Positions 1 through 17,920 of a DNA stretch of 17,920 bases are shown in pieces (positions within the stretch are counted from its first letter, which is position 1; the number at the start of each line of letters is the position of its first letter). Below the pieces are notes generated by a model. It was not told where the DNA came from, did no database searches, and saw only the letters and a program-made list of their open reading frames with translations. A program made the position numbers and the translations under genes. The stretch comes from Discostella pseudostelligera (taxonomy: Eukaryota > Bacillariophyta > Thalassiosirophyceae > Thalassiosirales > Thalassiosiraceae): assembly GCA_036940085.1 (NCBI GenBank), contig JALLBK010000582.1:1-17920 (forward strand), given 5' to 3'.

Positions 1-105
1 ACTGCTGCCGCTGTCGCCATGGCGGCCACAGGTGTTGCAATGATCTTTTGAAGTCGCTATCGGAATGTGGTAGTCTTCTGGGAAACATGGCACTAGCCGA
101 ATCAT
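1..105 (-). CDS. Possible partial exon of an unknown gene leaving the left edge
   Basis: On the minus strand a 35-codon frame runs open from an ATG at 103-105 to the window edge. It contains a CxxC pair (Cys23 and Cys26) followed by Gly, Arg, His and Gly-Asp, which is zinc-site-like in appearance. The ATG lies directly after TTCTCAG, so the frame could be an internal exon entered through a 3' splice site rather than a true start. I do not recognise the protein. Its reading frame differs from the end of the neighbouring large gene, whose stop is at 393-395. The composition looks more protein-like than the other frames here, but the stretch is short and there is no second exon to support it. 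Confidence 0.22.
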   Translation of the reverse strand, partial: MIRLVPCFPEDYHIPIATSKDHCNTCGRHGDSGSS

Positions 106-392
106 CTGAGAACTTCATAGGCATCCGTCATCCGTTACTGTTGTTTTCATCACCGCCGCTACGATACTTTACAATATCCTAAACTAATGTAGATTCCTGA
201 ACATCTTCTTTTCTCAATGTCGAAACTGCAATGAATGAAGATGACAGCTGTTCTTTTTACTACCAGCATACTCAATAGGGAGAGATTGTGTACGACGTGA
301 GCGTAAACGACACAGCAGATTGATGATGCGAACGGGTCTGCTGGCATTTCTACACATGCCGTTTACTTGCCCTTCTCGAGAGATCATCTTCA
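106..392. other. 3' flank of the large glycan-enzyme gene
   Basis: This stretch lies downstream of the stop codon of the minus-strand gene at 393. It probably holds its 3' untranslated region and the spacer to whatever gene lies to the left. A 62-codon minus-strand frame at 159-347 shows no recognisable domain and was not called. Confidence 0.4.
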
Positions 393-1572
393 CTAGTATT
401 CCAGCTTCATCATCTCGCGGATGCGAGATTTCAGCATTCCGTTTCCGACGGTCTCATCCCATGAAAAATACATCTCTATTGTTTCCTCTCCATGCGCAAG
501 AATTGGTTCGTCCAACATTTCCTCGTAACTTGCAGGATTTTGTTCATAGAACTGAATCTCCATCAATGCTTGTTGCGGTGTGTCCAAATCAAAGAAAATG
601 AATGCTTTTGCATTGAATATGTCGAAGACTAATCTACTTCCAAAGTAGATAGGAACGGTTCCGGCTAAAAATGCATGCAAAATTTTCTCTGACACGTATC
701 CAGGAGCATCTGTATTCTCCATCACAAGTGCATATCGGTATTTCGAATAGAGATCCAAATTGTCTCGTTGACTGTCTGTTCCAGTGTGACCAGAGATAGG
801 CTGAATTGATGATGGTCGTTGATTATCGTCAAAGGGCACGCATTGAGCAGTTTTGCCCTCGTTGGACGAGGTTGGGTAGGCTTCAAAATTTCCCTGGCAC
901 TTCCCAGCGGTATGAATTGGCGCAATTTCAGATAATGCTCTCGCTGCACGTTCCCGGTACTCTATGAAGTGAGAGTTCTGGAAAATAATAAGAGGAGAGA
1001 CATTGATGTTGAGAGACGAACAAACGAATGTGTTGGGACATGCAAAGACTTGCACTCACGATGTAGAGCAAAAAGTGCTCTCTGGTATTCTTCGGTTTGC
1101 TCATGGGTTCAAAAATCCTACTCAACTCCGTTTGTCGGCTCATGTGTAGGTACCACAGTCGCATCGAGCAAAGAGGAACACGAATGCTTCGACTAGTGTC
1201 CTCGTGTGGACCAATAACAAAAGTACTATCACCAGGAGGCAGATAGTTGAAAGTTAATTCCCCGTTGATGTTATCACGATGAGTCGGGTGAATATCATAA
1301 TATTCAGCGTTGATGTGCAGCTGATAACCAGGGAAGGCTTCAACATCAACAGAACAGAATTGATGGGAGTGCACAATAAGCATATCATGCTCTGTTGCGT
1401 CGTTGATTGTGACTTCTGTCAGCGCAAGCGCAGAGGTCTCGACGGTGCCGGAATTCATGCTGACGGTGCCCTCGAAGTCTGGGAAAAGTGACTTAGCCAG
1501 GAACAGTCCAAACGTCGAATACCTGAAATTCTGTCGAGTATTCAAGAATCCTTGAGCGCCGCCGCAGTAATA
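393..1572 (-). other. GT10 fucosyltransferase domain of the fusion protein
   Basis: Residues 1467-1831 match the glycosyltransferase family 10 fold. The key segment is the GDP-fucose-binding region MENTDAPGYVSEKI (1723-1736), followed by GTVPIYFGS (1743-1751), which corresponds to the family ENS-x-DYVTEK ... AGTVPV pattern. An upstream segment, NSHFIEYRERAARAL plus a GKC motif, matches the S-N-C/HGKC region of the family. Intron 10 (978-1059) lies just before it. The domain transfers fucose from GDP-fucose, usually in alpha-1,3 linkage. The acceptor cannot be read from sequence. Confidence 0.75.
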
Positions 1573-4500
1573 TAGCTTCTTAATGCCCTCTCGATTACGA
1601 TGTCCTCCATGAACACCGAATTTATTATCTGCCGATTTAAAGGACTCGTTTTCTAATGATGCAACCACTTCAATCATTTCATTCAGGCGCCGCACAGCAG
1701 AGGCAATTCTTTCATTACTGAAAAAATCTGAGTTTGCTCCAAAGAAGTACTGTTGTAGACCAAGACGGCAATCATTGTAAGATGATTACCCCTTCGCAAA
1801 CAACAATCACGAAAAAGAACGTCTGACGTACCTCAAACCTCGCTCGAAATTTGTCAGTTAAGTTGTTCACAACCTTTTCGACTTCTTCATTCGACTCAAA
1901 CTGCAACTCTTCGTATTCAATGCACAACACGTTATCGTACTGACAGTATGATGGATCAATTCTTGTCTCTGTACTTGTCCCGCGGTTAGAAACCACGAAG
2001 AAGACTTCATCAAATTCAAGTTTGTATATCTTATATAACCGTATGAGATCTAAAGCATGGGTCTTCGTAACCACCGTCTGAAAAATAGATATGAATTCAT
2101 GTCAGCAAAGCGAGGTAGTTCGGCAACGCTGGAAAATATCATATTTCAATTCTCACCGTGTTGATCGGTACAGTCTTATCGTTGTGCCTTACATTCGTCA
2201 GTGATTCACTGTTGACCAAAAAACTGTAGTTTTGATCAGGCTCAAACAAGCCCATCAGCCAGTTTGTCGCTACGGTGGATGCAGTATGTTGGGGAGAGGC
2301 TTGGAATATATGAAACGATTTCCCATTCACTCTGATTTGGGTGGATTCCGTTATAACTCCAGACTTCGCATCTTGCATCTCCTGAGGTCGATCATCCACT
2401 ACAGCTGTTGCAATATCCAATGCCTCTAACCTTTTAACTGCAGCCACGCGCTTACTTTCATCTAACGATTCAAGCCCGAAGAAGTATTGAAATCTGGATT
2501 GAAATTTATTCGCCACGTTATTAACCATTGCAGACAATTCGTCTCGACTGGTGTAGGTGAGGTCTTCGCTATCAATGCACAGAACATTGTCGTATTTACA
2601 TAGCTCTTTGTCGATGTGTGTATTCGTATCCACACCCTTAATAGTCGCAACAAAAAAGATTTCGTCAAAATTATGCCTTTCTCTCTGGTAAAGCTCGAGT
2701 AAGCCTACCTCATGAGTAATTGTTATCAATGAAGACTTCTTGTAGGCTGCGGTTGGATCAAAAAGGCCGACTAATATGTTGTTCAGTATAGTTGATCCAG
2801 TGTGAGGTAACGATGCTTGGAAAATATGAAACGTCTTTGTTGGCTGTTCGATACTATTCGTCTCTGAGGACTGGTTGACAATTTTGAGATATGCCGCATG
2901 AACTTCCTGCTGGTATCTCTCAAGTGTGGTGCGCAAACGGAGATGACGATCACCCCACTTTTGAATCAAGTCTACGAGCATGTTGGACATGGACTCTAGC
3001 ATTTCCCGGGTGTATGGTCGTTCAGTAGGCCCTGAACGTTGAGAGTCATGGTGAGCAGGATCAAGTCGCCGCCGTTTCTCATCCTTGAGCGTCTGATTTG
3101 GGGTTTTCACCTGCTCCTTATATTTAACAACAGCTCTCCAGACACAAGGAACGGATTCGGAGGCTATTGGATGAACTCCTTCACTTCTAGTTAAGAAATT
3201 GTTCAATCTGATTGCTTCTTGTGGCCCTTCATTGTCGTCGATAAGCGTCTCGTAGGAGATGAAGATGCGATCATCGTTCATATCATCGAATCGGTTCATC
3301 CAGTAATCAACAAATTTTGCGAACTTGTTGATCTGAGACATTGCCGAACGATCACGCCATTCGATCCAGTCACTCACTGGCGCTCGTTGACTGTGAATTG
3401 GTAGATTATTCTGTGTTTCGAATCTAATGGTGGCAATCATGTGTGAGACTTCGACTGACAATGGCGGGAGAAGTTGCAATACCTCAACAAACTTACATGT
3501 GGTTGAAAAAAGATGGAATAGAGTTCATGGGATTTCTGATAATGACTATCGCACGCTTTATCTCGTTATCCCATGAGACCTACACAATGTTTGATAGTCC
3601 GATGCAACAATCCCGTTAAAAGAGTTCTGAGTCGATGAAATTGCAATCAATTTTCAGACCATTGTCGTACCAGCTGGCCTGCATCATGCGGGTAGTGGGT
3701 CCTTCAAGAAGGGAAATGAATGGGTTAATGTCGAGTAAAACGCAGCTGAGCCGCAATTTTTCAAAGCGAGAAGAACTTACTTGACAGTAACCACCTGCTT
3801 GCCTCTACGATTGTTATCCCAATCATCGCCCGTCCACAACCCTGTCAATGCCTCAATCTATGCCCATCGCCCAACAGAACACAAACGTAAGATTTGCCTG
3901 ACGACAGTGTAATATGAGTTTACGGCAATGAACTTACCAAATTCCATGTCATGCGCGCACCGCAACCTGGAGTACGATTAAACGGGGGTTGGTTGATGCT
4001 CATCAAATAAATGGTTCCAACAAATCTTACTAACCTGGATAGGACGCTGCGTACGAAGTTTGAACGTTCCCCTGCGCCGGCTGCGGCCACGTTATTTCAC
4101 ATCCACCACCTGGAAGCGCAATAGACAAGCGCCGTCGGCGACCTCGGAGGCGGTCATAGGGCATTATTTTATCGCCCGCGGATTCTCCATCGGCATGGAC
4201 AACTTCCGACGATTTACTTTGGTAACCACCATGGATACCGAATTTCAAGTCCACCTTTTCTGCCGGTTCGTTGGCCATGGCGGCCGCTACACGCGCGGTG
4301 GCATCTAATCTTTCGACGGCATCCAATTCATTTTCTAGTTGAAGCAAATTGGAGTCAGCACCGAAGTAGTATTTGAATCTCTTGCGAAGTTTCTCTGTCA
4401 GCAACTTCACCATGGCATGCAATTCGTCCTCGTTTTTGTAGAGCAACTCTTCGTATTCGATGCATAGGACATTTTTGTAGCTACAGAGTTCGTTGATTTC

Positions 4501-6757
4501 ATCCCTGTTGGAATCGTTGTCCCGATACGAAACAACGAAGAATACCTCTTCAACGCTTGCTTTTAGGTTTTGACAAAGAGACATGTGAATGATATTCACG
4601 GGTATGCGTTAGCAATAAAAAGAAATGATAGAGCAACAGAGATGAAGCACCCACTAAAGCACACACTAAACTCACGCCTGATAAGTTTGTACAATGTCAA
4701 CAGATCCATATTGTGCGTCTTGGTCACAATGTTTGCATCGATTGTGGTATCACTTCCTGACTGCTGGATGGGTTCCTGCGGCCAGTTATTCTTCATGAAC
4801 GCAACATCCTTCTGGGGCTCGAAGAGTCCTATGAGCCAGTTCGTGGCCACAGTCGATGCCGTGTTCGGAGGAGATGCTTGTATAATGTGAAAGGGAAGCA
4901 TGGACAGTGGTGGTGGCGGCGGTCCTTGCAGAAGAGGCGGCGGCGGCTGCTTCTGCTGCTGCTGTTCTTGTTGATATTGTTGCTGCTGCAGTTGTTGTTG
5001 TTGTTGTTCTTCACTTTGTTGTTGCATTTTCTGGTGCTGCTCCTGAGCATCTTTATCCTGCCCACTCAATGCAGCTTCTAAATTGCCAGTGGATGCCAAA
5101 TATTCCCTATTTACCACTCGGTGGTAAAAAGATAGAATGGTCAGGACCCTCTGATGACGGCTCCATCGGTTCAATAGCTGCAATAACATATCCGTCATCT
5201 CCGCAAGATTTTCCGGTGTGTATGGCCGATCTTCTGAATTCCATTCCCCACCATCCATACCGAAATTATAAGTAAGCTCGTCAACACCGTTTTGTTGCTC
5301 CTGCGATTGCGATGATAACATTGTAGAATACACCACCTCTTTCCATATGCACGGTACGTCATCGGCAGCCGCCATCATCACTGTTGCATCCTTCCCCGCT
5401 CTGTCAATCAATTCTTCCGTGCTACTACTCAATCCATCCTCGATAGGTTGCGGTTTTCGTCCACTACCTACGCTCGTCTCCTCAGCACTGAAACCATCAT
5501 TCTCGTCCACCTCCCCATCTGGATTACTCCCACCCAATTCTGACTTAGCCCACTCCATCGCACTCTCCTTCATACCCCTCTCCAAAAACAATGCCAATCG
5601 TAATGTCTCTCCCGGCCCCGTATCTTCATTGACTAAACTCTCATATGAAAAGTATAGTCGATCATTCTCCCCTTTGCCGGCATGACGATCCATCCAATAG
5701 GATACAAATCGACGATAGAGCATGAGTTGGGAGGATAATTGGGTGTCGCGCCATTCGATCCATGCATTGCGTGCTTCCTCCTTTTGTTGTGACGATGATG
5801 AGGAGGATGATGTTGACGAGGAGGAAGAAGAAGAGGAACCAGTGGGCAAATGGTTCTTCATTTCGTACATTCGATTAAAGTAGTTGGGAATGGCATGCAA
5901 TGGATTTCGGAGTAATATAATTGCTCGAGGAATATCTCGGTCGAATGGTGCCTGGTGTAACGATGAATGATGGTGTGATTGTTAGTAGTTCGCTCTTGCA
6001 AATTTTGATGAATCAAATGAAGATGATGCATTTTATTATTGAGGCGATTGTGTCATCATTAATGACTCACCAATTGTCCCGAGGTGTGTGGAAATTGTGT
6101 CCTCACCGCCACCATTCTCTTATTTTCTCCGTGGTCAGTGGTAGCACTAGCTTCTCCATCACCACCCCTGGCACCAGCAGCATCACCACTAGCAGTAGCA
6201 GCAGCAGCAGCAGCATCACCAACAGGCAATCCCGTCAATCGCTCTACTAAATACTTGGTGATTAATTTATCCCCCGATCCTGGAAAGGATGCTGCATAAA
6301 ATAATGGTGCTGCTGATGAAGATGATGATGCATAATAAAATGAGTTGGCTTGACCGTCTTCTTGGGATTGAATAGTCTGTTGTTGCTGCTGTTGTTTTTG
6401 AAGTGGTGAAAGAACGTGGTCGGGACATTGATCTAGTATTAATTGTCGTCGTCGCTGGGTGTCTATTAGTGTAGGAGTAGATGAATTATTTTGAAGATTG
6501 TGCATCATCAATACTTCTTCCATGGATCGACGACCATGACGTTCATTCCAGCCATTGTCATTGTCGTTATTAAATGATGATGGAAAGATTGCAATGGTAT
6601 CAATTGCATTCATAGATGATAGGATGGCGAATGCTGCCACCGCCGCAATTGCAATCCAAGCGACGAAGCGGCGGCGGCGACCCATCGTCTTGCAACTCCT
6701 ACTGACAGCAAGACCGTGCAACTCAGCCGGGCTGCTGCTGCTGGATGGTATCGTCAT
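393..6757 (-). CDS. Multidomain sulfotransferase / GT10 fucosyltransferase fusion protein (11 exons, 1,831 aa)
   Basis: Exons, in minus-strand order: 6757-6071, 5951-4676, 4559-4035, 3966-3938, 3857-3781, 3701-3671, 3579-3497, 3423-2157, 2077-1832, 1749-1060 and 977-393. All ten introns are GT-AG, and the coding total is 5,496 nt with no internal stop. Residues 25-49 (Arg-rich, then hydrophobic) form a type II signal anchor, which suggests a Golgi lumenal enzyme. The domains are: sulfotransferase 1 (about 152-510), QASPP domain A1 (583-768), sulfotransferase 2 (822-1085), A2 (1101-1262), A3 (1273-1460) and GT10 (1467-1831). Residues 1-24 may be dispensable, because Met25 at 6685 is an alternative start placed directly before the anchor. 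A Ser run and a Gln/Pro linker lie between domains. The gene could in reality be two genes, but splice junctions 4035/3966 and 3497/3423 fall inside sulfotransferase 2 and tie the halves together. The likely role, inferred from the families, is transfer of fucose and sulfate onto a secreted glycan. Confidence 0.8.
1591..2315 (-). other. QASPP domain A3
   Basis: FHIFQASPQHTASTVATNWL (1273-1292) opens the copy, followed by VTKTHALDL, FDEVFFVV, YDNVLCIEYEEL, YFFG and KFGVHGGHRNR (1450-1460). Introns 8 (2078-2156) and 9 (1750-1831), both phase 0, interrupt it at sites where A1 and A2 have none. It is the most complete of the three copies and leads directly into the GT10 domain. Confidence 0.65.
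2346..2831 (-). other. QASPP domain A2 (degenerate copy)
   Basis: FHIFQASLPHTGSTILNNIL (1101-1120) opens the copy. The Lys of the KTH motif is replaced (ITITHE, 1136-1141). FDEIFFV, YDNVLCI and QYFFG are kept. The C-terminal His-Gly-Gly motif is missing. There are no introns in this copy. It is probably a structural or degenerate module. Confidence 0.6.
2877..4059 (-). other. Sulfotransferase domain 2 (WSCD-like), split by five introns
   Basis: The PAPS loop is AASYPGCGAR (residues 825-834), split by intron 3. It is followed by IEALTGLWTGDDWDNN, an intact VKTHYP (864-869), RAIVIIRNP (884-892), WIEWRD (922-927) and FISYETL (957-963). The domain closes with VPCVW (994-998) and the terminal helix (1038-1083). 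The unbroken KTHYP makes this the better candidate for an active sulfotransferase. The N-terminal half is encoded by exons of 29, 77, 31 and 83 nt. Confidence 0.75.
4219..4892 (-). other. QASPP domain A1 of the fusion protein
   Basis: This is the first of three copies of a domain of about 190 residues. It opens with FHIIQASPPNTASTVATNWL (583-602), a P-loop-like start resembling the PAPS-binding strand and loop of sulfotransferases. It continues with VTKTHN (638-643), VEEVFFVV (657-664), KNVLCIEYEELL (683-694), KYYFG and finally KFGIHGGYQ (760-768). Intron 2 (4560-4675, phase 1) falls between the KTH and FFVV segments. I recognise the architecture as sulfotransferase-like but cannot name a characterised family. 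Confidence 0.65.
4908..5060 (-). repeat. Gln-rich and Pro-rich interdomain linker (imperfect CAG/CCN-type trinucleotides)
   Basis: On the minus strand this stretch encodes a Gln/Glu-rich segment (residues 527-564) followed by two runs of four or more Pro (565-577). It joins sulfotransferase 1 to domain A1. The codons are mixed CAA and CAG, so the repeat is imperfect and probably of moderate stability. It reads as a flexible hinge. Confidence 0.8.
5109..6304 (-). other. Sulfotransferase domain 1 (WSCD-like) of the fusion protein
   Basis: The PAPS 5'-phosphosulfate loop is the AASFPGSGDK segment at residues 155-164. The helix after it ends in Leu-Thr-Gly, as in WSCD-type sulfotransferases. Across the first intron (5952-6070, phase 0) the domain continues with RAIILLRNP (238-246, the 3'-phosphate strand), WIEWRD (293-298) and FSYESL (330-335), then VPCIW (428-432) and a terminal helix (471-513). 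The segment that is normally KTHFP reads RTQFP here (219-223), so nucleotide binding may be altered. The domain carries two low-complexity insertions, a Ser run at 268-283 and an acidic loop at about 365-425. Confidence 0.75.
5790..5837 (-). repeat. Poly-Ser tract inside sulfotransferase domain 1
   Basis: Sixteen codons (residues 268-283) encode Ser apart from one Thr, with mixed TCN and other Ser codons. The tract interrupts the sulfotransferase fold between the RNP strand and the WIEWRD motif. The second sulfotransferase domain has a plain loop at the same place, so this is a lineage-specific expansion. Confidence 0.8.
6611..6685 (-). other. Signal anchor of the fusion protein
   Basis: Residues 25-49 start with Met-Gly and four Arg, followed by about 17 hydrophobic residues and no obvious cleavage site. 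This is the usual N-terminus of a Golgi type II membrane enzyme. It would place all six downstream domains in the lumen, where glycosyltransferases and carbohydrate sulfotransferases act. Confidence 0.7.
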
Positions 6758-7145
6758 TGTGCAATGCGCAGTTTGGCGTTGCGCCCTTGGATTGTCAATC
6801 TCGAGCTTGGGACGACGCGTTCACTACATAGTAGGATGAAGCGGACGTCATGGTCATATCATGGGCATCGGTCATGATCCCGCGATAAGCCTTCCCGCGC
6901 GAAGTCGCGATGACCGCGGCGCCACTCATCGCCGATGACCTCGCTTATTATTTTTGGAGGAAAGATACTTAGGGTCATTATGAACAAGAAGATACTTAAG
7001 GAAGGGGGAAAGTGGCAGTAAAGATTTGGCGGGAAGGTAGATCCACGTCATCGTCCACTCACAGCCTCTCGATTTTCGTTTTTGGATGATCATTTCCACT
7101 TTCCACTACCTTACTTCCACTTTCCACTTCCACCCGTCGCCGACC
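6758..7145. promoter_or_regulatory. Divergent promoter region
   Basis: This 388-bp gap separates the start of the minus-strand fusion gene from the start of the plus-strand gene at 7146. It contains ACGTCA bZIP-type cores near 6845 and 7047, two copies of GATACTTA (6964 and 6991), and five GGTCAT/ATGACC hexamers between 6852 and 6978. TTCCACT heptamers crowd 7094-7128, directly upstream of the plus-strand start. Function is inferred from position only. Confidence 0.5.
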
Positions 7146-8484
7146 ATGACAGCCGCCGCCAGGATGATGTCTACCATGACATCATCATCATGGCTCGTGG
7201 CACTTGTGCTACTGGGTGTCGCGTCTTATTCGTCGTCGGGACCATCAGTAGTAGTGTCAGCAGCAACAACAGTAGCGTCGCCATCATCTGCCTTCTCGCG
7301 GAGTGGGGGCCACTTTGGCGTATTGACCCGAAGTCGACGACGTCATCAATTTGACATTACATCACCGGCATCAATACAAAAATATCCGACACTGCAAATT
7401 CGAGGAGGAGCCAACGATGATGAAGATGAGTATGATTCCGAAGTTGACGATGATGATGAAGAAGAGCCAATCATCCAAAAGACCAAATCGCTCGCCTCCT
7501 CCGCCAAATCTGTCGCACAAAAGAAGAAGTCGGCGGCACTCAAGTCCAAAGTCAATGTGGCTATCTCATCCTCCGCCGCCGCCGCCACAAAGAAGAAGGG
7601 AGGAAAGAATATCTACCAGCGTTATGTCCCCTACATCCTTCGAGCATGCTTGAATCCATTCACTTTATTGGCCATGACTAAGGCCTACTTTGTTAGTTTG
7701 TGTGATATCAATTATTTGAAAGAGGTGAGTTTTAGTGAAGAACATAGAGAGATTTGGAGAAAGCGACGTGTTCGTTTGTTTGTATGTTTGGTACCCTGAT
7801 GGAGAGGGTGTCGATGGAGGACTATGCTATTTTTGTGAAAAGGGGGGGATACAACGACAACATCAATGCGACAATACCGACGACAACTTCACACACACGC
7901 ACACCCAGATCAATGTATGTTTGCGCATATCCTCATGATGTATATTACATCAATTACAACCGGATTATTTGCGTGCGTTTATTCTGGAACATCAATTCAT
8001 TTCCGCCACGACTCTTCTTCGACGTTGCAAGTTTTTTGCAGCGATGAGGAATCTTATGGTTGTGGAAGGGGAATGATTCCTGCCGTCCTTAAGGCTGTTT
8101 TCATTTGGTCACTTGATTGATCAAGGAACGTACGGAAAATGTACTTCTATCATTGAAATCATACGAGTCATAACGGCAATACAATTCACTTTTTGCTTTA
8201 CTCGATGCGTTCGTTGTCGGTGTTGGGTGGGGGGATCTAGGGAAAGACAAATTATTGGCTGACTTGGAGCACTCCGTTCATTGGATATTGCGCGTTTTCT
8301 AACTCACTTACCCTCTCTATCCATTGAATCCATCAAATAGGAACCAACCCAAAATCTTCGTTCGGCTCTTGCCGACAAGGCACGGAAACAACAGCCACCA
8401 CCATCATCCTCTACCAAACCCAAACGCAAAATGAAACCAGGACAGGCCAAGACTATATCCGATCTGCCACAATTGAGTGCCTGA
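7146..8484 (+). CDS. Conserved-looking secretory or plastid-targeted protein of unknown function (2 exons, 240 aa)
   Basis: The exons are 7146-7724 and 8341-8484, with donor GAG|GTGAGT, acceptor ATAG|GAA, phase 0. An upstream in-frame ATG at 7086 exists, but the Met at 7146 gives a normal signal peptide (residues 15-40). SSAF at 47-50 resembles the diatom ASAFAP plastid-import motif and is followed by an Arg/Ser-rich stretch. A strongly acidic segment (90-107), a Lys/Ala/Ser-rich segment (111-154), and a compact C-terminal part follow. That part contains RYVPYILRACLNPFTLLAMT (159-178), a short hydrophobic stretch that may touch a membrane, and the ending KMKPGQAKTISDLPQLSA. I cannot assign a function. 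The low-complexity middle and ordered C-terminus suggest that the C-terminus is the conserved part. Confidence 0.75.
7725..8340 (+). other. 616-bp intron of the unknown-function gene
   Basis: This is by far the longest intron in the window; the others are 68-119 bp. It has a consensus donor (GTGAGT) and a TAG acceptor after a pyrimidine-rich stretch. It contains a short CA run at 7891-7904 and an inverted repeat CTTGAT-TG-ATCAAG at 8112-8125. I see no further exon whose inclusion would improve the protein. A hidden alternative exon or small RNA cannot be excluded. Confidence 0.6.
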
Positions 8485-8906
8485 GGCTAAGGGAGCGGGC
8501 TGAATAGGCAACTAATTATTTGGTACCCGCTCTTGAGAATCAGAGATTGAGGAGAAAGAGAGATGTTGTTGGGTGTGTGTGCATGATGTATTGATGATCA
8601 ATTATTGATCGCGTAATGACGAAAGAACTTTCTTCGCTCCATTTCATGGAAACGAGAGGACTTTTTTCTGAAAAGATTACATCGGTCCACGCACTCCCAG
8701 CTCTCCTCCCTCCCCGCTTGCATCTCTCTCTTTGAGTGGTATCATAATAGTTATGCCCCCGTTCCCATTTATTTTTCGCTATTATGAATAGTATCGTAAA
8801 ATATTTCTGCCTTACTTTAATATATGGAATGGTAATGCCAATGGGACGCGGAATACAACTGTACTGGAAAGGCAAACGCAAACTCAGACACGTTCAAAAC
8901 AACTCT
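8485..8906. other. Convergent 3' region between two genes
   Basis: The plus-strand gene ending at 8484 and the minus-strand gene ending at 8907 converge here. An inverted repeat, GATCAAT-T-ATTGATC, sits at 8596-8610. No coding frame here shows domain content. The region presumably holds both 3' untranslated regions. Confidence 0.45.
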
Positions 8907-10183
8907 CTACAACAGAGCCACGGTTATCCACTGGGCGGATATACAAGCCAACACTCCCATCTTAACAATTATTGGAATTGAAGAGATGATTCTATTACCA
9001 CTTGAGACAACAGTTCGAGAACTATCTGGTGAAGGTAGTGTTGTTGTGGAGGGAGGAGGAGGGATGGTGGTGGTGATGGACGACTCCATAGATCCCGTTG
9101 TGGCAGTGTTGATGGGAAACGATGCCGTCGTGGCAGGTGAGCCAATGGGTGAACTAACTGTCGATCCGGTAGCAGTAGACTCTGGTGCATTAGCGGCGGT
9201 TGGTGAAGATAAAATAGTGCTGGATGTTGTTGTTGTGTTCAAAGAAGAGGAGTCGTCAATCAGCATTGCAGATACGCCACTGCATTCGTCCAAAGCTTCT
9301 ACACAAGGTAGTCGACACGTCGCACACTCCTCCGATTCTTCATCAAACTCACTTTTTCAGGAAAGAAATAATGGAGTGTGTGAGAGAGGATGATTTGCAA
9401 GCGTGAAAATAATTGAGCAACTTGACTCATCCAACAAACGTACCACGAACTCTGACAATCTTTCTCAACAATACAATTTGCCACCTCCCCAAAACAAGCC
9501 GCGCATGCCTCTGAAAATCCCAATTCCACAAAGCAATCCTGTGTACAATCCCCTAGATAATAACATCCCCCGTTCCATTGTGTCGTACAATACTGTATAC
9601 TGCTGTCATCGTTCGACATATTGTTGAGACTCCATGCCGCAATATCTGCGGAGTTGTCGCATTGATCAAAACTTGAAAATGTGATTGAATCATCCATCAT
9701 ACTTGAAATCATGGTGGAAAAGGTTATTGATATTCCCGAGGAAGGTGTGGAGGGTGGCAACATTTCGAAAGTGTCATCATTCCCTCCCATCATTCCCATA
9801 TTATTGCCAAAGGCATCATCGCCTGTATCACTTGTGAGCGAACACACTTCCGGGACATCCGTCGTATCCAAACAAAGAGCAGCGCCCTGCTCGACAGAGC
9901 CACATTGAACACAGTACGGAGTGCCAATGTCAGATGGACAATTTTGCGTGGAGGTTGTTACCAATATAATCTCGCCATTGGGTCCACAGACCTTGTCTTT
10001 GTTATCGTAGGAGGTTTCATTGACGCAGACCTGGCCGAAGGTGCCGATGCTTTGGCCTTCCATGAACATCATGTCGCCCTCGACGAGACAGTCAGCGAGG
10101 ACATTGGTGGGGGCATGCAGAAGTAGGAGGAGGGTGGCGGTAGCGGTGAAGCCGAGTAGGGATAGGGGGGACGACGCCGCCAT
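8907..10183 (-). CDS. Secreted cysteine-rich protein with Ser/Thr stalk and GPI-like tail (2 exons, 394 aa)
   Basis: The exons are 10183-9444 and 9351-8907. The 92-bp intron has donor GTACGT and acceptor AAAAG, phase 2, and splitting there creates a Cys codon that completes a Cys-rich domain. A signal peptide (1-30, cleaved after VLA) is followed by an eight-cysteine module (C32-C114) shared with the neighbour at 10890. A second, different Cys-rich domain spans C175 to about 272, with ten or more cysteines that include CAAC and CATC. A Ser/Thr/Pro-rich stalk (about 274-365) and a hydrophobic C-terminus ending in Val-Ala-Leu-Leu complete it; the tail resembles a GPI-attachment signal. The architecture fits a cell-surface or wall protein. 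There is no enzyme motif, and I do not recognise either Cys domain. Confidence 0.8.
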
Positions 10184-10889
10184 GGTTCGCTTGGATCTTG
10201 GATCTTGGATTTATTAGCTGGGGCATGCGGTGCACGGCAGCAGCCTGATCTCGGCACGACGACGGCCGGGCAGACCTTCCTCAGAAAGATAATTTTGGAC
10301 TTTTAAAATTAAAATTTGAAATTGAATAAGATACTTAATGAACTTTGAAATGAAAATTTGAAATTGAAAAAGATACTTAATTACTTAACGTATGCACGAC
10401 ACCGTCGTCGAAGCGACGACTCGGCTCCACCTCCTTACACGTGGCACACCGATCGATACTCTCGCGCGCGGTCCTCTTGCTGTGGGCGAAGTGCGACGAT
10501 GCAAAGCGACGATGCAGTGCTTCCACAATTAATCTCCAATCCCCAATGTACTCAATCTCGCTCTGTCTCTAGAGATCGATATTGGAGAGCGAAATAAACA
10601 CAAGAACTACGAGGCGAGGTTTGACAACTTGTTGCATATGAAATATTATGCACCGCAGGCAGTACTACTACATCTTTCGTTTCCATCGGTTGCACGGCAA
10701 GGAACCACATCAATCATTCCATCATCATTGTATTGAAAGTGCGTCGAGAAGTACATGTACATGCGCATCGTCCATCATCGTCAACGGATAGATCTATTCT
10801 AGGTAGGTATGCAAAAGCAACATGGATCGACTGCTTCTCTCTCCGAATCACCACACACCACCACATCAGAGTGATGATTGCAAATTGTA
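10184..10889. promoter_or_regulatory. Spacer holding the promoter of the 10183 gene and the 3' region of the 11696 gene
   Basis: Both flanking genes are on the minus strand, so the right part should hold the 3' region of the upstream paralogue. The left part should hold the promoter of the gene that starts at 10183. The A/T-rich direct repeat at 10311-10380 is 128-197 bp upstream of that start codon. No credible coding frame was found. Confidence 0.45.
10311..10380. repeat. Two 28-bp direct repeats at a 42-bp period
   Basis: Copies at 10311-10338 and 10353-10380 differ at one base. Each consists of AAAATTTGAAATTGAA followed by an AAGATACTTAA-type end. The first half recurs at about 11938-11953, and the GATACTTA core recurs at 6964 and 6991. 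All occurrences lie upstream of gene starts, which suggests a shared promoter element or a small dispersed repeat. Confidence 0.75.
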
Positions 10890-11696
10890 CTACACCAGCA
10901 CACTCCCACTAAAGATCATAATCCCCATCATCGAAGCTACTATACCACCACTCTTCTTGACGGAACCACTACTGCTACTACCAGTAGGTGTCGCCGGACT
11001 AGTCACCGTCACCGAAGTGGGGGAAGTTGCCGGCTCGACTGCGGTGGCACAATCACTCGGAACCTCTGGACTTGTCAAACATAATGCCGATCCCTTTTCT
11101 CCCACTACTCCACATTGGACACAATAGGATGATTCTTCCGGACAAGTGAATTGCGCATCCGTTTCTGTAATAATATTGTCGCCGCTGCAGATGGATTCAA
11201 TGGCATTGTACGAAGTGTCATTGACACATTCGATGCCAATATGACCGGTGCTTTGACCATTTGTGTACATTATATCGCCCACGAGACATCCGGTGAGAGA
11301 GGAGGTGCCCTCTCCCTCAGTAGTTGAAGTAGTAGTTGACCCCGTGGCGGTGGTGGTATCAACGCAATTGCTGGGAATGTCGGTAGTATCCAAACATAAT
11401 GCTGCACCCTCGCTACGTTCTCCACATTGAATACAGTTTATATTTGTCGTTGGACAGGTGTATACTGCATCAATTTTGATAATGGCACCATCAGGCCCAC
11501 AGACCGAGTCGGTAGCATCGTACGAGGTGGCATTAATGCATTCGAGACCGATGTGACTTATGCTTTGACCTTCCATGAACATCATGTCGCCTTCGACGAG
11601 ACAGTCGGCGGAGACTAGTACCCCTCCTCTGGTAGAAGGATAGATGAGAAGGAGGGTGGCGGAGCTGCCGAGGAGGGTGAAGAGTTTCAAATGCAT
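10890..11696 (-). CDS. Secreted protein with two eight-cysteine modules and GPI-like tail (268 aa, single exon)
   Basis: The start at 11696 was chosen because it gives a clean signal peptide (residues 1-30, cleaved before Asp31-Cys32), exactly as in the paralogue starting at 10183. The frame stays open for another 462 bases upstream, but that part looks non-coding. Two tandem modules, C32-C111 and C137-C216, share eight cysteines and conserved segments (CLV-x-GD-x-M, GQS, IxC or CVN, TSY, CxQC, ALCL). A Thr/Ser spacer separates them, and a Ser/Thr-rich stalk (217-245) and a hydrophobic C-terminus (249-268) follow. It is probably a GPI-anchored or wall-associated surface protein. The gene is a close tandem relative of the 8907-10183 gene but lacks its second Cys domain. 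Confidence 0.82.
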   Translation of the reverse strand: MHLKLFTLLGSSATLLLIYPSTRGGVLVSADCLVEGDMMFMEGQSISHIGLECINATSYDATDSVCGPDGAIIKIDAVYTCPTTNINCIQCGERSEGAALCLDTTDIPSNCVDTTTATGSTTTSTTEGEGTSSLTGCLVGDIMYTNGQSTGHIGIECVNDTSYNAIESICSGDNIITETDAQFTCPEESSYCVQCGVVGEKGSALCLTSPEVPSDCATAVEPATSPTSVTVTSPATPTGSSSSGSVKKSGGIVASMMGIMIFSGSVLV

Positions 11697-12181
11697 GGCG
11701 GCGATGATCGATGATTTGAGTTGAATTGATGCGAGGAATTGAATAGTGAATAGGAGTAAGTAAAATGAAATTGATTGGGGCTGGATGGCGAATCGATCCA
11801 GCGGCGGCAACCGAACCCGCCCAATCCAAACACACACACGATCTCTAGAATTTTCAAAGGTCCCACTTTCTACTAATTCCTCCGTATCATAGTGGCCAAT
11901 ATCTTCCTGGGGTTGCTTAAGATTCAAAGTTTGAATTAAAAATTTGAAATTGAAGATCTTTCGGGAAGATCTTTCGGGTTCCCCCCGCCCCCCTTTTTCA
12001 AAAGATTCGGCTTCGGTTCTGAAAGGGTTGCGAACCATGCCATCCACCACTTTCACTTCTTTTTGAAGAGAGTTCGCGTTCGCGTTGGTGTTGGTGTTGG
12101 TGGCGGCATTCATTGTCATTTCATCGGCAGGCAGCGGCTTGGATCGGATTACCACCACAGCTATCGGACATAATTATCATC
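11697..12181. promoter_or_regulatory. Divergent promoter between the cysteine-module gene and PCCA
   Basis: This 485-bp gap separates a minus-strand start (11696) and a plus-strand start (12182). It includes an AAAAATTTGAAATTGAAG segment at 11938-11955, like the repeat upstream of the paralogous gene at 10311. It also includes a perfect tandem 13-mer. Transcription signals are inferred only from position. Confidence 0.45.
11952..11977. repeat. Perfect tandem 13-bp repeat (GAAGATCTTTCGG x2)
   Basis: Two head-to-tail copies sit in the divergent promoter, immediately after the AAATTTGAAATTGAA segment. Each copy contains the AAGATCTT palindrome, so the array could be a pair of binding sites or simple slippage. 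Confidence 0.8.
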
Positions 12182-14963
12182 ATGAAATCCATGGCATTAT
12201 CATCGTCGTCGCGTAGTAGCAGTCGATGTCATCGGTCTGCATTGTCGCGGGCACTTTTTGGAATTGACGGTGGCAATGTTGATGGCGTCGTCGGTAGCAG
12301 CAGCGGCATCGGCATCGGCAGTGGTGGTAGTCGACATCGTTATTTCCACCACAGCAGCGTCGTTTATCCATTGAGAAGAACGTCATCTCCAACTGATTAT
12401 AGCTCTAGCTTCTTTTTAGCATCGTCGTCGTCGTCGTCGTCGTCCATCGCGCCATTTTCCACCAGCAGCACTTCGTCGTCATCATCATCAGTGTCATTGC
12501 CACCTCCCCTCCGCAAAATTCTCATCGCCAATCGCGGCGAAATTGCCATCCGCATCATCAAATCGGCACGTGAACATGGCATAAAGACCGTAGCCATCTA
12601 CTCCAGCGCCGATGCTCGATCGCCGCATGTCACCCTTGCCGATGAAGCCGTCTGTCTTGGTCCCAACCCAGCCTCCAGTGCTAGTTACTTGGATATTGAC
12701 AAAGTATGTGAAGCAGTGCGCATGACCCACAGTGAGGGAGTGCATCCTGGCTATGGCTTCCTATCCGAAAACTGCAAATTTGCTGAACGAGTCGAGAGTA
12801 TTGTACTGGACAATTCGGAAAGTAGTGAAAAGCGCAAAGTCAAATTCATCGGACCATCGACCCATGCCATTCAATCACTTGGTGATAAAATCCAATCGAA
12901 GTTAATTGCGGCATCGGCAAATGTCTCCACTGTACCAGGCTACAATGGTGTGGTCACCTCACCGTCCCATGCACTTGAAATTGCACATGACATTGGATAT
13001 CCGGTAATGATCAAAGCATCGGCCGGGGGAGGTGGGAAAGGGATGCGAATATGTTACACCGACGAAGAAGTTAACGAAGGATATCGATTGTCCAAAGCCG
13101 AATCGGCAAGTTTCTTTGGTGATGATCGATTACTAGTCGAAAAGTATGTGGAAGATCCACATCATATTGAAATTCAAGTTTTGGCAGGCACAAACCCCGC
13201 CAATGGACAATTGGACATACTCTGCTTTGCCGAAAGAGAATGCTCGATCCAACGTCGGAATCAAAAGGTTATTGAAGAAAGTCCCAGTCCACACCTCCAT
13301 CCCTCCACTCGTCGAGAAATGATACGACAAGTCAAATCATTGGTTAGGGCAGTAGGATATGAAAGTGCGGGCACTGTGGAATTTCTGGTAGATGCTCATC
13401 AAAACTTTTATTTCCTTGAAATGAATACCCGGTTGCAAGTGGAGCATCCCGTTACGGAAATGATTAGTGGTAGTGGATATCCCACGGGGAAATATGTGGA
13501 TTTGGTATATGGTATGTTCGAAGTTGCGGCAGGTAGGGGTATCCCTCGTGAATATTTGGATATGGTTGAAGATAATGGTGAGAATGACGAGGGGGCGAAT
13601 GTACGATATACGGGCCATGCCATTGAGGCACGAGTGTATGCCGAAGATCCCTATCGGGGATTTTTACCAAGTACGGGTCCTTTGGTCAAGTATGTGGAGC
13701 CACCGTCGTTGATACATGTGGAGAATGATGCGAGCATTAGTGATGGTAGTAGTTCGGCCTCGTCATTGTGCAATATTCGAATCGATTCCGGTGCCATACC
13801 CGGAGCCATCATCACTACCCATTATGATCCCATCATCTCCAAGATTATTTCCTACAGCCCCATATCACGTCAACATGCCATTCATGGTCTGGGAATGGCA
13901 TTGGATCAATATATCATGCGTGGCGTACAGCATAATATCCCGTTCGTTAGGGATGTATTGCGCAATGACGATTTTGTCAAGGGAATTACACCCACGGGGT
14001 TTATTGGACAACATTATCCCGAGGGATTTCATGGTGCGGTATTGAGCGATAGGGAAAAGAGTGAATTGGTGGTGATAATGCGTGAGATTGATAGGAGGAG
14101 AAAGGCGGCGCATGCAAGAGATGGAGGAGGAGTAGGAGAGGATGATGTCGTGGTGTGCTTGGGAGGCATGTTTGGTGATGCCTATCTTGTTCGTTCTGCT
14201 CCTGGAAATTCAACCGCTGGTGGGTCTATTAGTGCTTCTGTTACGAAGCTTCCGAAACGCGTTGATGATGGTGATGATGAGAAGAAGGAAGAGGATGTGA
14301 ATGTAGTCGATTCTCAATTTGTGGAACTATCGGCATTTGAGTACAAGACATCGAGTGCATTGGCTATTGTGGAGATTGCTGGAGAGAGTCGAGCGTTGCA
14401 GGTGCGTACAATTCTCTTGCTATGTCAGATCTCGTTTCAATAGTTCTCTCACATCCCTCTTTCGTTTATTCGCCTTATATTGTCTATCAAAAAAGGTGCA
14501 TGGAGATGACGAGATTGGAACGCTAACACTCACCATGTACGGCTCAGATGTCGATGCCCTGGTAATGAGTCCGACGGAATATCAACTATCCTGCCACATG
14601 CATGAACCAGCGCCACCAGATTTTGGCAACTATGTATTGAGCCCAATGCCCGGCACACTCATTAGCTTCGCTGTCAAGGTACGAATAACGAGTACTCAAT
14701 GCATACCATTGTATCCAGCGCCTGTACTACTCTGCAGTTGCACTCACCTTCGTGTTATGATTCTGACTTTGAATACATCTTCGCAGGAGGGAGATGTTGT
14801 TGAATTGGGCCAGGAATTGTGTGTGGTGGAGGCGATGAAGATGCAAAATATCATTCGTTCGCATAAGGCGGGGGCAAAGGTTGGCAAGCTCCATGGCAAA
14901 GTCGGAGCATCCCTTCGCGCTGACGAAATTCTGGTGGAGTTTGAGAAGAACGTGGAACCGTAG
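12182..14963 (+). CDS. PCCA: Propionyl-CoA carboxylase alpha subunit, mitochondrial (3 exons, 859 aa)
   Basis: The exons are 12182-14401, 14496-14678 and 14787-14963 (introns of 94 and 108 bp, phase 0). The Met at 12182 begins an Arg/Ser-rich presequence typical of mitochondrial import; an upstream in-frame ATG at 12113 is less likely. The biotin-carboxylase domain starts at ILIANRGEIA. It has HPGYGFLSEN, the ATP-grasp Gly-rich loop GGGGKG (282-287), RECSIQRRNQK and EMNTRLQVEHP (413-423). The middle region (YDPIISK, MRGVQHNI, FVKG) follows PCCA rather than methylcrotonyl-CoA carboxylase. The C-terminal biotinyl domain has EAMKM with the biotin-accepting Lys819. The protein carboxylates propionyl-CoA to methylmalonyl-CoA together with a beta subunit not seen here. 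It is somewhat longer than animal PCCA because of Ser-rich, Gly/Tyr and acidic insertions. Confidence 0.92.
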
Positions 14964-15221
14964 GAGTTCCATAGCATAGCCTGAGAGAGTGCACTGTTTT
15001 ATAGAATAGTTCGATGTTGTATCTTGGTCTGAGGGTGGAGTAATATGTGTAGAATGGTAACCTCAACGACTTCAAGAGAACGGATCGTTGATGTATGGTC
15101 TCGTAGTCATATCATAAATCTGTTAGTGACTGGCGCTCTATCGATGTACGTGCATTTTGCCTTCTACATGTTATTTATTTGCATCACCATTCGGTGTTCC
15201 GCGCCACTGCAACCTCACCAT
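14964..15221. other. Convergent 3' region of PCCA and the CNNM-like gene
   Basis: The 258-bp gap lies between two stop codons on opposite strands. No coding or structural feature was recognised. It presumably carries both 3' untranslated regions, which may overlap as antisense transcripts. Confidence 0.4.
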
Positions 15222-17897
15222 CTATCCAGATGCTCGCTTTTCGGACACAATCTCTTTAACATACGCCGCCTTCATAGCATTTTGCTCCACAAGTCGTTCA
15301 ACCCTGCTAGCCTCATTCATATTCATAACTCGTGCCTGTCGTGAAACAGCCTCAGCATGGCTCATGTCATCATGGACAGCTGCCTCCACTGCCGCAGATG
15401 CTGATTCGTCTCCAATGTCACCGTTGACGTTCATTTCTGATTTATTTGCGTCATCGTTGTTTTTATTGTTCCTATTAAAGAAGCCAAGTACCAAATTTTC
15501 ATCTCCATCCTCTCCATCTTCACCGTCAAAGTAACCCAGTAATCTCTCAACCTTGACCTGGAACACTCGCTTCTCATCCCCGTCCGCTACTTGAAACTTC
15601 CATCCTCGGCTCATAACAAAGTCACCAACATGAGGGATTTCGCCCGCGCAGAAGCAGAGGAAGCCACTCAGGGTGCCATATTCCTTCAGTACTTCTTCTT
15701 CGTCAAGATTCAGGCCAAGCACAGCATCGACGTCTTCCAAGTCAGCATCACCGCGAATGAGAAAGGTGCCATCTTCTTGGAAGATGATTGAATTTTCCTC
15801 AAATACAACATCGTCTTCATCGTCCTCATCATAGATTTCACCCACAACCTGGATACGGTGCGAGAAGATGATGCATGAAGCGAAATGAGATACAGGGTCG
15901 GGATACTACAGCATCATGAATTGTAGTTCTAAACTCACCTCCTCCACAATATCTTCTAACGACACTAGTCCCTCCGTCCCTCCATACTCGTCCACTACCA
16001 CAGCCATGTGCACCCTTCTCCGTCTCATTTCCTGCAATACGCTCCATCCATTGGCCGTCTCGGGAACGAAGTAACAAGATTCTATTAATCCGGCATCATC
16101 AATGGTGGTCTCCATCCGTGAGGCTAGCTGAGATCCCGTCAATGATCGTACATATCTATCCATGGTCTTGCCAGTGGGTGGATCAATAAAGGATAATTTA
16201 CCAATATCATCGGCTGAGGAGGAACCTTGCTCTCCTCCCCCCTCACTGCCACTAATCTCTTCATTCATCACATCATCCCGTGGACGTCGATACTCCCCAT
16301 CCACCAACACTCCCTTGACGAAAAAGTCTAGTACGCTCTTGGCCAATACAATCCCAACAATGTTATCAATCTCACCCACATACACCGGAATACGACTATA
16401 TCCACTCTCTCTCACCACACCCAAAACACTTGCCACACTCATACTCTTGGGCACTGCCACAATCTCCACACGTGGTTTCATAATTTCACGAACTTTCTGA
16501 TCTTGCAAATTCAATACACCCTTGATCATCTCCTGCTCTGAATAGTCAATGGTACCCGAATCTCTTGCCCCAGTCACAATAAGCCGCAATTCGGAGTCAC
16601 TCACTCCACTAGTCTCATTGGATTTAATTCCAAACAAACGTAATGTCGCCTTGGCCAAATACGACAATGCATACCCAAATGGCCCGACCGCATTGGCCAA
16701 CACATTAATCGGTGGTACCATGAACCGTGCCACACGTTCCGCATTAATCACACCAATATTCTTGGGTAGTAATTCCACAAAGAATAAAGTAATTGCTGTT
16801 AGGAATACAGCACTCCATTTCTCGGCACGGGCACTCCCAAAGATATGATCGGCCAAATGGGTGAATAAGGTCGTGGCATAGATGGAACATGCCGTCGATG
16901 TGACCAGTATGGTGGTTAATACACGTGTAATATCCTCATTGAGGGTTTGGAAGGTCCCTCGTCGTTGTTGTCTACTCTTACTACCCCCGGATCCGCCTCC
17001 ACCTCCCCCCGAACTTGAGCGTTGTTTCTCCTCCTCTTCGGCAAATTCACGTACCTTCCATGGGTATAATGTGGTAATAGCAATTTCGGCCGCATGCAAT
17101 AAAGCCAGACCGGTGAAGATGGCTAACCAGATGGTTAGTTTGGAGGCTAATTCATTAGTGGATAGGGGAGTTAATGGTGCATCGGTGGGGGAGCGTTTGG
17201 CCATTCCTCCTCCTCCAGCATGAGCCAAAGGTAGGAGAAAGTTGGTGAGAATGTTGTTATTAGAATAATTGTTGTGGTTGGATAGTAGAAATTGGGGGAG
17301 GATGGTATGGCTGATTAATAGGGTGGCAAAGGCATATACTATTCCACGGGGAAATAATCGTCGTCGGTGTTGTTGCCCAAGAAGTTGGGATTGTTCTGTT
17401 GATTTCAGTGGCCGCTCCAAGAGATTTCTGACGCTGCTGTTGCTATTGGAATCACCACCACGACGACAATTTGAAATGATATTTCTAGCCCAGCGAAGTG
17501 GTTTCAGTGTGTTGGGCGAATCTGAATCTGACGCTGACGCTGACGACCATGTTGCTCCCAAACAAGTAGAAGTAGTGCTGGAAGCTACGCGTGGCATTGA
17601 ATGTCGATGGGTTGATAATGACGATAGTGATGGCATTGCGCTCCGGATAATGCTGGCATGATGATAGCCAAGAGAAGATTCTACCGCCGCCGCCGTCGCC
17701 GCACCATGTCGAAGTCGTAGTCTGCTGCTGCTCGCGGCTCCGCCCATGGAAGACGATGATGGCGCCAACAATGCCGACGAGAGGCCTACATTGGAGAATA
17801 AAATCGAAATAGCCAACCAGATCATCATAGTTGTCATTGTTGAACGATGCCGCCCATGGCCCGTCGTCGGCGAGGATGGTATTGATTGCATTGTCAA
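15222..17897 (-). CDS. CNNM/CorC-type DUF21-CBS membrane protein, probably plastid-targeted (2 exons, 861 aa)
   Basis: The exons are 17897-15939 and 15848-15222. The 90-bp intron is phase 0 and splits the conserved LEDIVEE|VVGEI motif. An N-terminal signal peptide (about 21-44, ending SSALLAP) precedes a long Ser/Arg-rich stretch, like a diatom plastid presequence. Predicted membrane segments lie near 186-205, 253-272, 325-346, 361-378 and 393-412. The DUF21 core is recognisable by AEIAITTLYP and VELLPKNIGVINAE. Two CBS domains follow (about 472-527 and 606-660, with VDEYGG and SLEDIVEE), then a CorC_HlyC domain (671-758). The family includes bacterial CorC/HlyC, animal CNNM proteins and plant chloroplast DUF21 proteins, linked to Mg2+ or other divalent-ion transport. 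A Gly-rich loop interrupts DUF21 at 296-305. The C-terminal tail beyond 760 is acidic and then Ala/Glu-rich helical. Confidence 0.88.
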
Positions 17898-17920
17898 TTG
17901 ATGATGTCGCAGAATTATTG

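Follow-up and report, generated by a model that had tools for sequence, protein, structure and literature searches.

GT10 alpha-1,3-fucosyltransferases (FucTs; PF00852) are known from structures in which the FucT stands alone, such as Helicobacter pylori FucT (2nzw, 2nzx), Arabidopsis FUT11 and human FUT9. The sulfotransferases that use 3'-phosphoadenosine 5'-phosphosulfate (PAPS; PF00685) include the SULTs, TPST and the heparan N- and 3-O-sulfotransferases. In heparan NDST1 (8ccy, 8cd0, 1nst), the partner of the sulfotransferase is a deacetylase and not a glycosyltransferase, and repeated compact sulfotransferase folds are not known from it. A gene of the diatom Discostella pseudostelligera pairs sulfotransferase folds with a glycosyltransferase and with repeated compact folds. 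It lies on the minus strand at 393..6757 of a 17,920-nucleotide stretch (contig JALLBK010000582.1, positions 1 to 17,920), here called the window. GT10 forms the last fifth of its 1,831-residue chain, which also bears five sulfotransferase folds: two sulfotransferase domains (ST1 and ST2, the former often without the histidine of the family) and three compact domains (A1, A2 and A3).

Gene fusions around sulfated fucan synthesis have been reported in brown algae, for instance FK-GFPP and a sulfotransferase-alpha/beta hydrolase fusion (Nemacystus decipiens; PMC6418280). They join other partners, and the available part of that source mentions no fucosyltransferase-sulfotransferase fusion. No description of such a fusion was found in the titles and abstract openings of the open-licence literature. 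Both GT10 enzymes and PAPS sulfotransferases are familiar, and it is for their union in one chain with three compact folds that no description came up there. The author of an earlier note on this DNA knew of no described enzyme with this architecture; it is not unique to this gene, however, since relatives share it.

Structure of the fusion gene

Positions 6757 to 393 splice into one frame of 11 exons that encodes 1,831 residues and closes with a stop, and the length first proposed was thereby obtained again. Each of the 10 introns begins with a GT donor and ends with an AG acceptor. The stop-to-stop frame that contains the start opens at 6820, and the chosen start is its first ATG. Exon 1 (6071..6757, residues 1-229) encodes the membrane anchor, a linker and the start of ST1, exon 2 (4676..5951) the remaining ST1, a Q/P-rich linker and the start of A1, and exon 3 (4035..4559) the remaining A1 and the start of ST2. 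They are followed by exon 4 (3938..3966, 29 nt), exon 5 (3781..3857, 77 nt), exon 6 (3671..3701, 31 nt) and exon 7 (3497..3579, 83 nt). Exon 8 (2157..3423) holds the remaining ST2, all of A2 and the start of A3, and the gene is completed by exon 9 (1832..2077), exon 10 (1060..1749; A3 end and GT10 start) and exon 11 with the stop (393..977). All exons were read from the spliced translation, and exons 4 to 11 also from the comparison of junctions.

The 10 junctions were compared with six relatives (P0001, P0003, P0005, P0006, P0008 and P0013). Junctions 3, 4, 6, 7 and 10 are gapless in all six and every other junction in two to five of them; gaps were observed at junctions 1 (P0003), 5 (P0013), 8 (P0001, P0006) and 9 (P0003, P0008), and the region of junction 1, 2 or 8 is absent from some relatives. 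The restored motifs quoted in the earlier note, GQL/APFDRD, PG/CGAR, VK/THYP, FE/YFFG and YI/NSHF (the slash marks the join), sit at junctions 1, 3, 5, 9 and 10. The fusion is independent of the choice of junctions because the domain joins fall within exons, ST1-A1 in exon 2, A1-ST2 in exon 3, ST2-A2-A3 in exon 8 and A3-GT10 in exon 10, and the introns between 3424 and 4034, the suspected site of a split, interrupt ST2 alone.

Two or more adjacent genes, a sulfotransferase and a fucosyltransferase, could nonetheless have been falsely joined. Gene models break off at the four short exons (29-83 nt) of 3497-3966: the annotated models of P0061 (Cyclotella cf. meneghiniana) and of P0063 (C. cryptica) consist of ST1-A1 only, and P0065 (Cyclostephanos tholiformis) breaks at the start of ST2. 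Nevertheless, P0065 continues into the ST2 start before its model errs, it looks truncated at the small exons, and truncated models are the better reading. Moreover, long relatives carry the entire domain order, and the P0013 record has an MMETSP name, presumably that of a transcriptome project. With the joins inside exons and the same order in the long relatives, misjoining is scarcely credible and was rejected. The fusion gene is real, and splicing, domain search and relatives uphold a single gene in the order anchor-ST1-A1-ST2-A2-A3-GT10, as had been claimed.

The anchor and the six domains

Hydropathy spans of 19 residues above 1.6 start at residues 29-40 only, which places a single hydrophobic signal-anchor at about residues 29-58 (6584..6673), adjoining RRRR. 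A type II membrane topology and a location in the Golgi would be expected of such a protein.

The domain search proposed in the earlier note gave both families above cut-off on the full spliced protein, PF00685 with 32 bits (cut-off 22) and PF00852 with 31.6 bits (cut-off 23.9). ST2 (residues 821-1084, exons 3-8, 2880..4062) excised alone scored 21.8 bits with PF00685, just under the cut-off, while ST1, A1, A2 and A3, each alone, gave no Pfam match above cut-off. A sulfotransferase fold was found for ST2 by structure comparison of models of relatives, with heparan N- and 3-O-sulfotransferases less than 1 Z unit from the best of the 50 matches listed out of up to 1000 preselected chains. In the window, ST2 carries SYPGCGARMTW, VKTHYP (His867, codon at 3697-3695 in exon 6) and VIIRNP. 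The first of these motifs is without the lysine of the PKSGTTW loop that we take to be common in sulfotransferases, and the KTH histidine is presumably the catalytic base, as in SULTs. KTH[YF]P was observed in 15 of 15 covered ST2 rows, the window included, outside a group of relatives with three domains, in which the histidine is replaced by Q, R or L (0/3). Only ST pieces of at least 150 residues and with scores above 100 bits entered this tally; P0010, P0011, P0012, P0024 and P0039 are fragmentary or incomplete, and 11 further rows do not cover the motif.

ST1 (residues 151-516, exons 1-2, 5091..6307) was assigned from the tree, the motif tally and its similarity to ST2 (29% identity, E 9e-40). 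It reads VRTQFP in the window, with Gln221 where ST2 has the histidine. Four of the nine reliably covered ST1 rows have the histidine (P0001, P0002, P0061, P0063), three have Ser (P0003, P0004, P0008) and two Gln (the window, P0065); the remaining 7 of 16 either do not cover the position or were discarded as misaligned (P0011, P0062). The claim of two sulfotransferase domains is qualified by the glutamine at the usual catalytic position: one of the two may be active and the other altered, although it is possible that ST1 of the window uses another catalytic base.

The compact domains A1 (residues 581-768, exons 2-3, 4219..4898), A2 (residues 1099-1258, 2358..2837) and A3 (residues 1271-1459, exons 8-10, 1594..2321) were recognized by mutual identity, which is 45% for A1-A3, 38% for A1-A2 and 37-38% for A2 to A1 or A3, together with the position clades of A2 and A3 (below) and the fold of a family member for A1 and A3. 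Their BLAST similarity to ST1 and ST2 is at chance level. That they are unrelated to sulfotransferases was considered, since sequence gave no link, and was rejected on the fold of P0042, a stand-alone anchor-plus-A relative: among the matches listed for its model, taken from up to 1000 preselected solved chains, 50 of 50 entries are sulfotransferases. They include Teg12 and Teg14, which we take to be sulfotransferases too. What had been a guess from sequence, that A1-A3 are sulfotransferase-like, is therefore backed by these fold matches.

Four columns resembling a PAPS site or base are all retained in A1, A2 and A3 of the window, and jointly in 2 of 20 A1, 13 of 35 A2 and 11 of 24 A3 rows; the columns were picked by eye, a gapped row was scored as a loss, Lys passed in place of Arg, and P0046, the window's own frame, was counted a second time among the A2 rows. 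Since the window keeps the four columns and a minority of rows do, the A domains of the window can neither be dismissed as dead nor taken as shown to be alive. The assembly that contains the window comprises 23.0 Mb in 963 contigs, and the genome searches ignore introns and count best candidates only. In this genome, A domains gave five matches at E 0.01, all inside the fusion gene, which is a lower bound. None of the 65 pattern matches to the A-domain query in prokaryote genomes, or of the 62 to the A3 and GT10 query in viral contigs, was confirmed. An A-domain alignment compared with solved structures returned FucT chains, because its rows include GT10, and three chance-level matches. P0042 and P0074 are membrane-anchored lone A proteins without Pfam matches above cut-off, and would represent an undescribed compact sulfotransferase-fold family of diatoms or their relatives.

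GT10 (residues 1466-1831, exons 10-11, 396..1575) reaches 36.9 bits with PF00852 on the domain alone, and structure comparison gave a GT-B fold resembling solved FucTs. It contains ENTDAPGYVSEK at residues 1724-1735, in which N1725, Y1731, E1734 and K1735 align with N240, Y246, E249 and K250 of HpFucT, presumably residues of the GDP-fucose site. Profile, fold and motif together confirm the earlier identification as a GT10 fucosyltransferase, and transfer of fucose from GDP-fucose is the predicted activity. The tyrosine and lysine are kept in 15 of 17 fused rows that cover the motif outside the three-domain group. Both residues are replaced in P0008 (F, N) and in P0018 (F, D), with GFVSE[ND] in place of GY[VI][ST]EK, and these two may have lost fucosyltransferase activity; ST2 of P0008 still reads KTHYP. 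In the three-domain group, Asn is replaced by Asp or Ser in 5/5 GT10 rows and Lys by Arg in 4/5.

Relatives and possible function

Homologue searches were restricted to proteins of 0.55-1.75 times the query length, outside of which relatives may be missed. With residues 600-1831 as query, 14 proteins were returned, 13 of them strong, and sulfotransferase and GT10 domains occur in one record in 11 of these 13; P0011 and P0012 end before GT10. The domain order of the window was observed in P0001, P0002, P0003, P0004 and P0006, although P0003 and P0004 are without the GT10 C-terminus and P0006 without the ST1 start. P0004 begins with Val and stops abruptly past the SEKIL motif; it looks like an unspliced open frame, in which case most of the six-domain protein would lie in one exon there. 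Shorter arrangements were also found, namely an anchor-like stretch followed by ST2-A2-A3-GT10 in P0005 (Thalassiosira profunda), P0007 and P0009 (Skeletonema marinoi), and ST1-ST2-A2-GT10 in P0008 (1,273 residues). The structure model of P0005 has a predicted template modelling score (pTM) of 0.44, and domain packing was therefore not read from it. The seven species named in the hits are T. profunda, T. exigua, T. punctigera, S. marinoi, C. cf. meneghiniana, C. cryptica and C. tholiformis; the four that were checked, one per genus, all belong to the Thalassiosirales.

A side branch comprises P0013 (taxon 265564, T. punctigera), P0079, P0080, P0021 and P0023, with the layout ST-A-GT10 in the three that reach ST (P0013, P0079 and P0080) and a much altered GT10 motif. 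It is possibly a lineage of pseudo-enzymes that is still transcribed, as the P0013 record suggests.

When 79 A domains were placed in a tree (78 distinct ones, as P0046 is the window's own frame), the 35 A2 rows form one side of a branch (support 96/99) and the A3 rows one clade of 23 (99/93) with P0080 apart, while A1 rows group with the three-domain A at weaker support (92/73); long proteins were labelled by position but fragments by best-scoring profile, so that the position clades are partly circular for the fragments. ST1 (16 rows) and ST2 (29 rows) are split by one branch (94/99), and the three-domain ST sits beside ST1, a placement marked as perhaps due to long-branch attraction. On the simplest reading of these trees, a single assembly of the array preceded the parting of the lineages, and the domains were then inherited by position.

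Records of this one family are filed as hypothetical, 'glycosyltransferase (family 10)', 'Fucosyltransferase' or 'sulfotransferase', and family-by-family annotation thus conceals fusions. For instance, S. marinoi P0009 is named 'glycosyltransferase (family 10)' and is likewise fused; in the records as available, its name and that of T. oceanica THAOC_00736 cover GT10 only and are silent on the sulfotransferase parts.

We tentatively favour, with somewhat less than even confidence, a Golgi enzyme that couples fucosylation and sulfation for the fucose-containing sulfated polysaccharide (FCSP) of thalassiosiroid diatoms. As a type II membrane protein, it would modify a single acceptor glycan twice: GT10, at the C-terminus, would move alpha-L-fucose onto it from GDP-fucose, and ST2, together with ST1 in some species, would add sulfate taken from PAPS. 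The A modules would most likely be spacers, handlers of acceptor or PAPS, or minor sulfotransferases, and extracellular FCSP would be the likeliest product. GDP-mannose dehydratase-like pieces (the best below cut-off) and two adenosine 5'-phosphosulfate (APS) kinase matches suggest that the GDP-fucose and PAPS donor pathways are present in the window genome. Thalassiosira weissflogii and C. weissflogii are, we assume, the same species. FCSP has been obtained from Chaetoceros socialis, T. weissflogii and Nitzschia frustulum (PMC7896085), and the structure of C. weissflogii FCSP is called unknown in the available part of a 2026 paper (PMC13063451). The accessible text of a 2024 survey counts no putative fucan synthase as validated and does not settle the question for diatoms (PMC11468063), which makes the fusion gene a candidate. 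It is a testable one for the making of the sulfated sugars, rich in fucose, that diatoms shed into the sea, with a single knockout target in a thalassiosiroid diatom and a single chain to express. A bolder version, in which GT10 adds and perhaps extends alpha-fucose while the ST/A array sulfates the passing chain and the A domains are a new compact sulfotransferase class, would provide the first identified gene for diatom FCSP; it is speculative and quite unlikely.

Several points weigh against a coupled FCSP enzyme. The six-domain form is read from the gene sequence, the activity of each domain is predicted, and sulfate might go to another glycan than fucose. PF00685 has no match in the orthologue P0005 and is below cut-off in P0013 (19 bits) and P0079 (13.4 bits), so that the assignment to the sulfotransferases depends on fold and motifs. 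With the residues lost from ST or GT10 in P0008, P0018 and the three-domain group, some members look inactive. Chaetoceros and Nitzschia also make FCSP and none of the seven species-named hits comes from these genera; as the named relatives are thalassiosiroid, the gene may explain one lineage's version only. Finally, T. oceanica THAOC_00736 (PF00852), which has 1,273 residues like P0008 and is probably the same protein by this equal length, is tabled as an N-glycan (1,3)-FucT (Behnke 2021, PMC7864949).

This last entry leads to a reading in which the same fused enzyme acts on glycoproteins, GT10 being an N-glycan alpha-1,3/1,4-fucosyltransferase and ST sulfating the same N- or O-glycans. A Phaeodactylum GT10 fucosyltransferase has been tied to glycoprotein fucosylation, and the fusion gene, the one GT10 locus found in the window genome by PF00852 and by a GT10 protein query, might have to serve N-glycans. 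Nevertheless, PF00852 is the sole domain given in the T. oceanica table as available, Phaeodactylum FucT54599 has 481 residues and the word 'sulfotransferase' is absent from the main text of its paper, and further GT10 genes may be missed by an intron-blind search of a fragmented 23 Mb assembly. This reading is unlikely, if a serious contender. That one half alone is catalytic in a drifting family, while the other (the ST array or GT10) serves it as a scaffold for binding, would agree with the histidine losses in ST1 and in the three-domain ST, with the substitutions in the three-domain GT10 and with the few A rows that keep all four columns. It appears rather unlikely: in the window, the histidine of ST2, the motif of GT10 and all four scored positions of A1-A3 are retained, and the ST2 histidine is constant in the covered rows outside the three-domain branch. 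Sulfation and fucosylation of a small molecule or lipid, for example a sterol or glycolipid, could be imagined because cytosolic SULTs, which act on steroids and other small molecules, are the best or nearly the best fold matches of ST2 and the A domains. However, the heparan enzymes match ST2 almost equally well, and we infer from the membrane anchor and GT10 that Golgi and glycans are concerned, which leaves this possibility highly improbable.

Separate and neighbouring genes

A stand-alone anchored paralogue of ST2 that keeps KTHYP was found on another contig of the window genome, C385 (G000:C385:14148-15927; L002:3149-4928, plus strand). Its best piece is 56% identical to ST2 over 154 residues and contains one internal stop, which probably lies at an intron; the translation includes an X (unread base). 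The GT10 and A-domain genome searches gave no match on this contig. Another separate frame of 659 residues (L003:1367-3346, G000:C752) has a clear PF00685 match of 54 bits and resembles what we take to be WSCD-type sulfotransferases. A fusion of another kind was also observed in a metagenome protein of 1,795 residues, P0082, in which a sugar-transferase, GT11, an FkbM-type methyltransferase and GT10 are joined in one chain.

Within the window, two minus-strand frames at 9299-10210 and 10890-12173 share a common unit starting DCLVEGDMMFMEGQSI, of which the second carries an extra, more diverged copy; neither gave a Pfam match at E 0.001. The plus-strand frame at 12023-14443 encodes the biotin carboxylase part of a biotin-dependent carboxylase, and a biotinyl-like stretch, EAMKMQ, comes next in the frame 14307-14963. 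At the end of the window, a CNNM/CBS transporter is encoded on the minus strand at 15906-17918.

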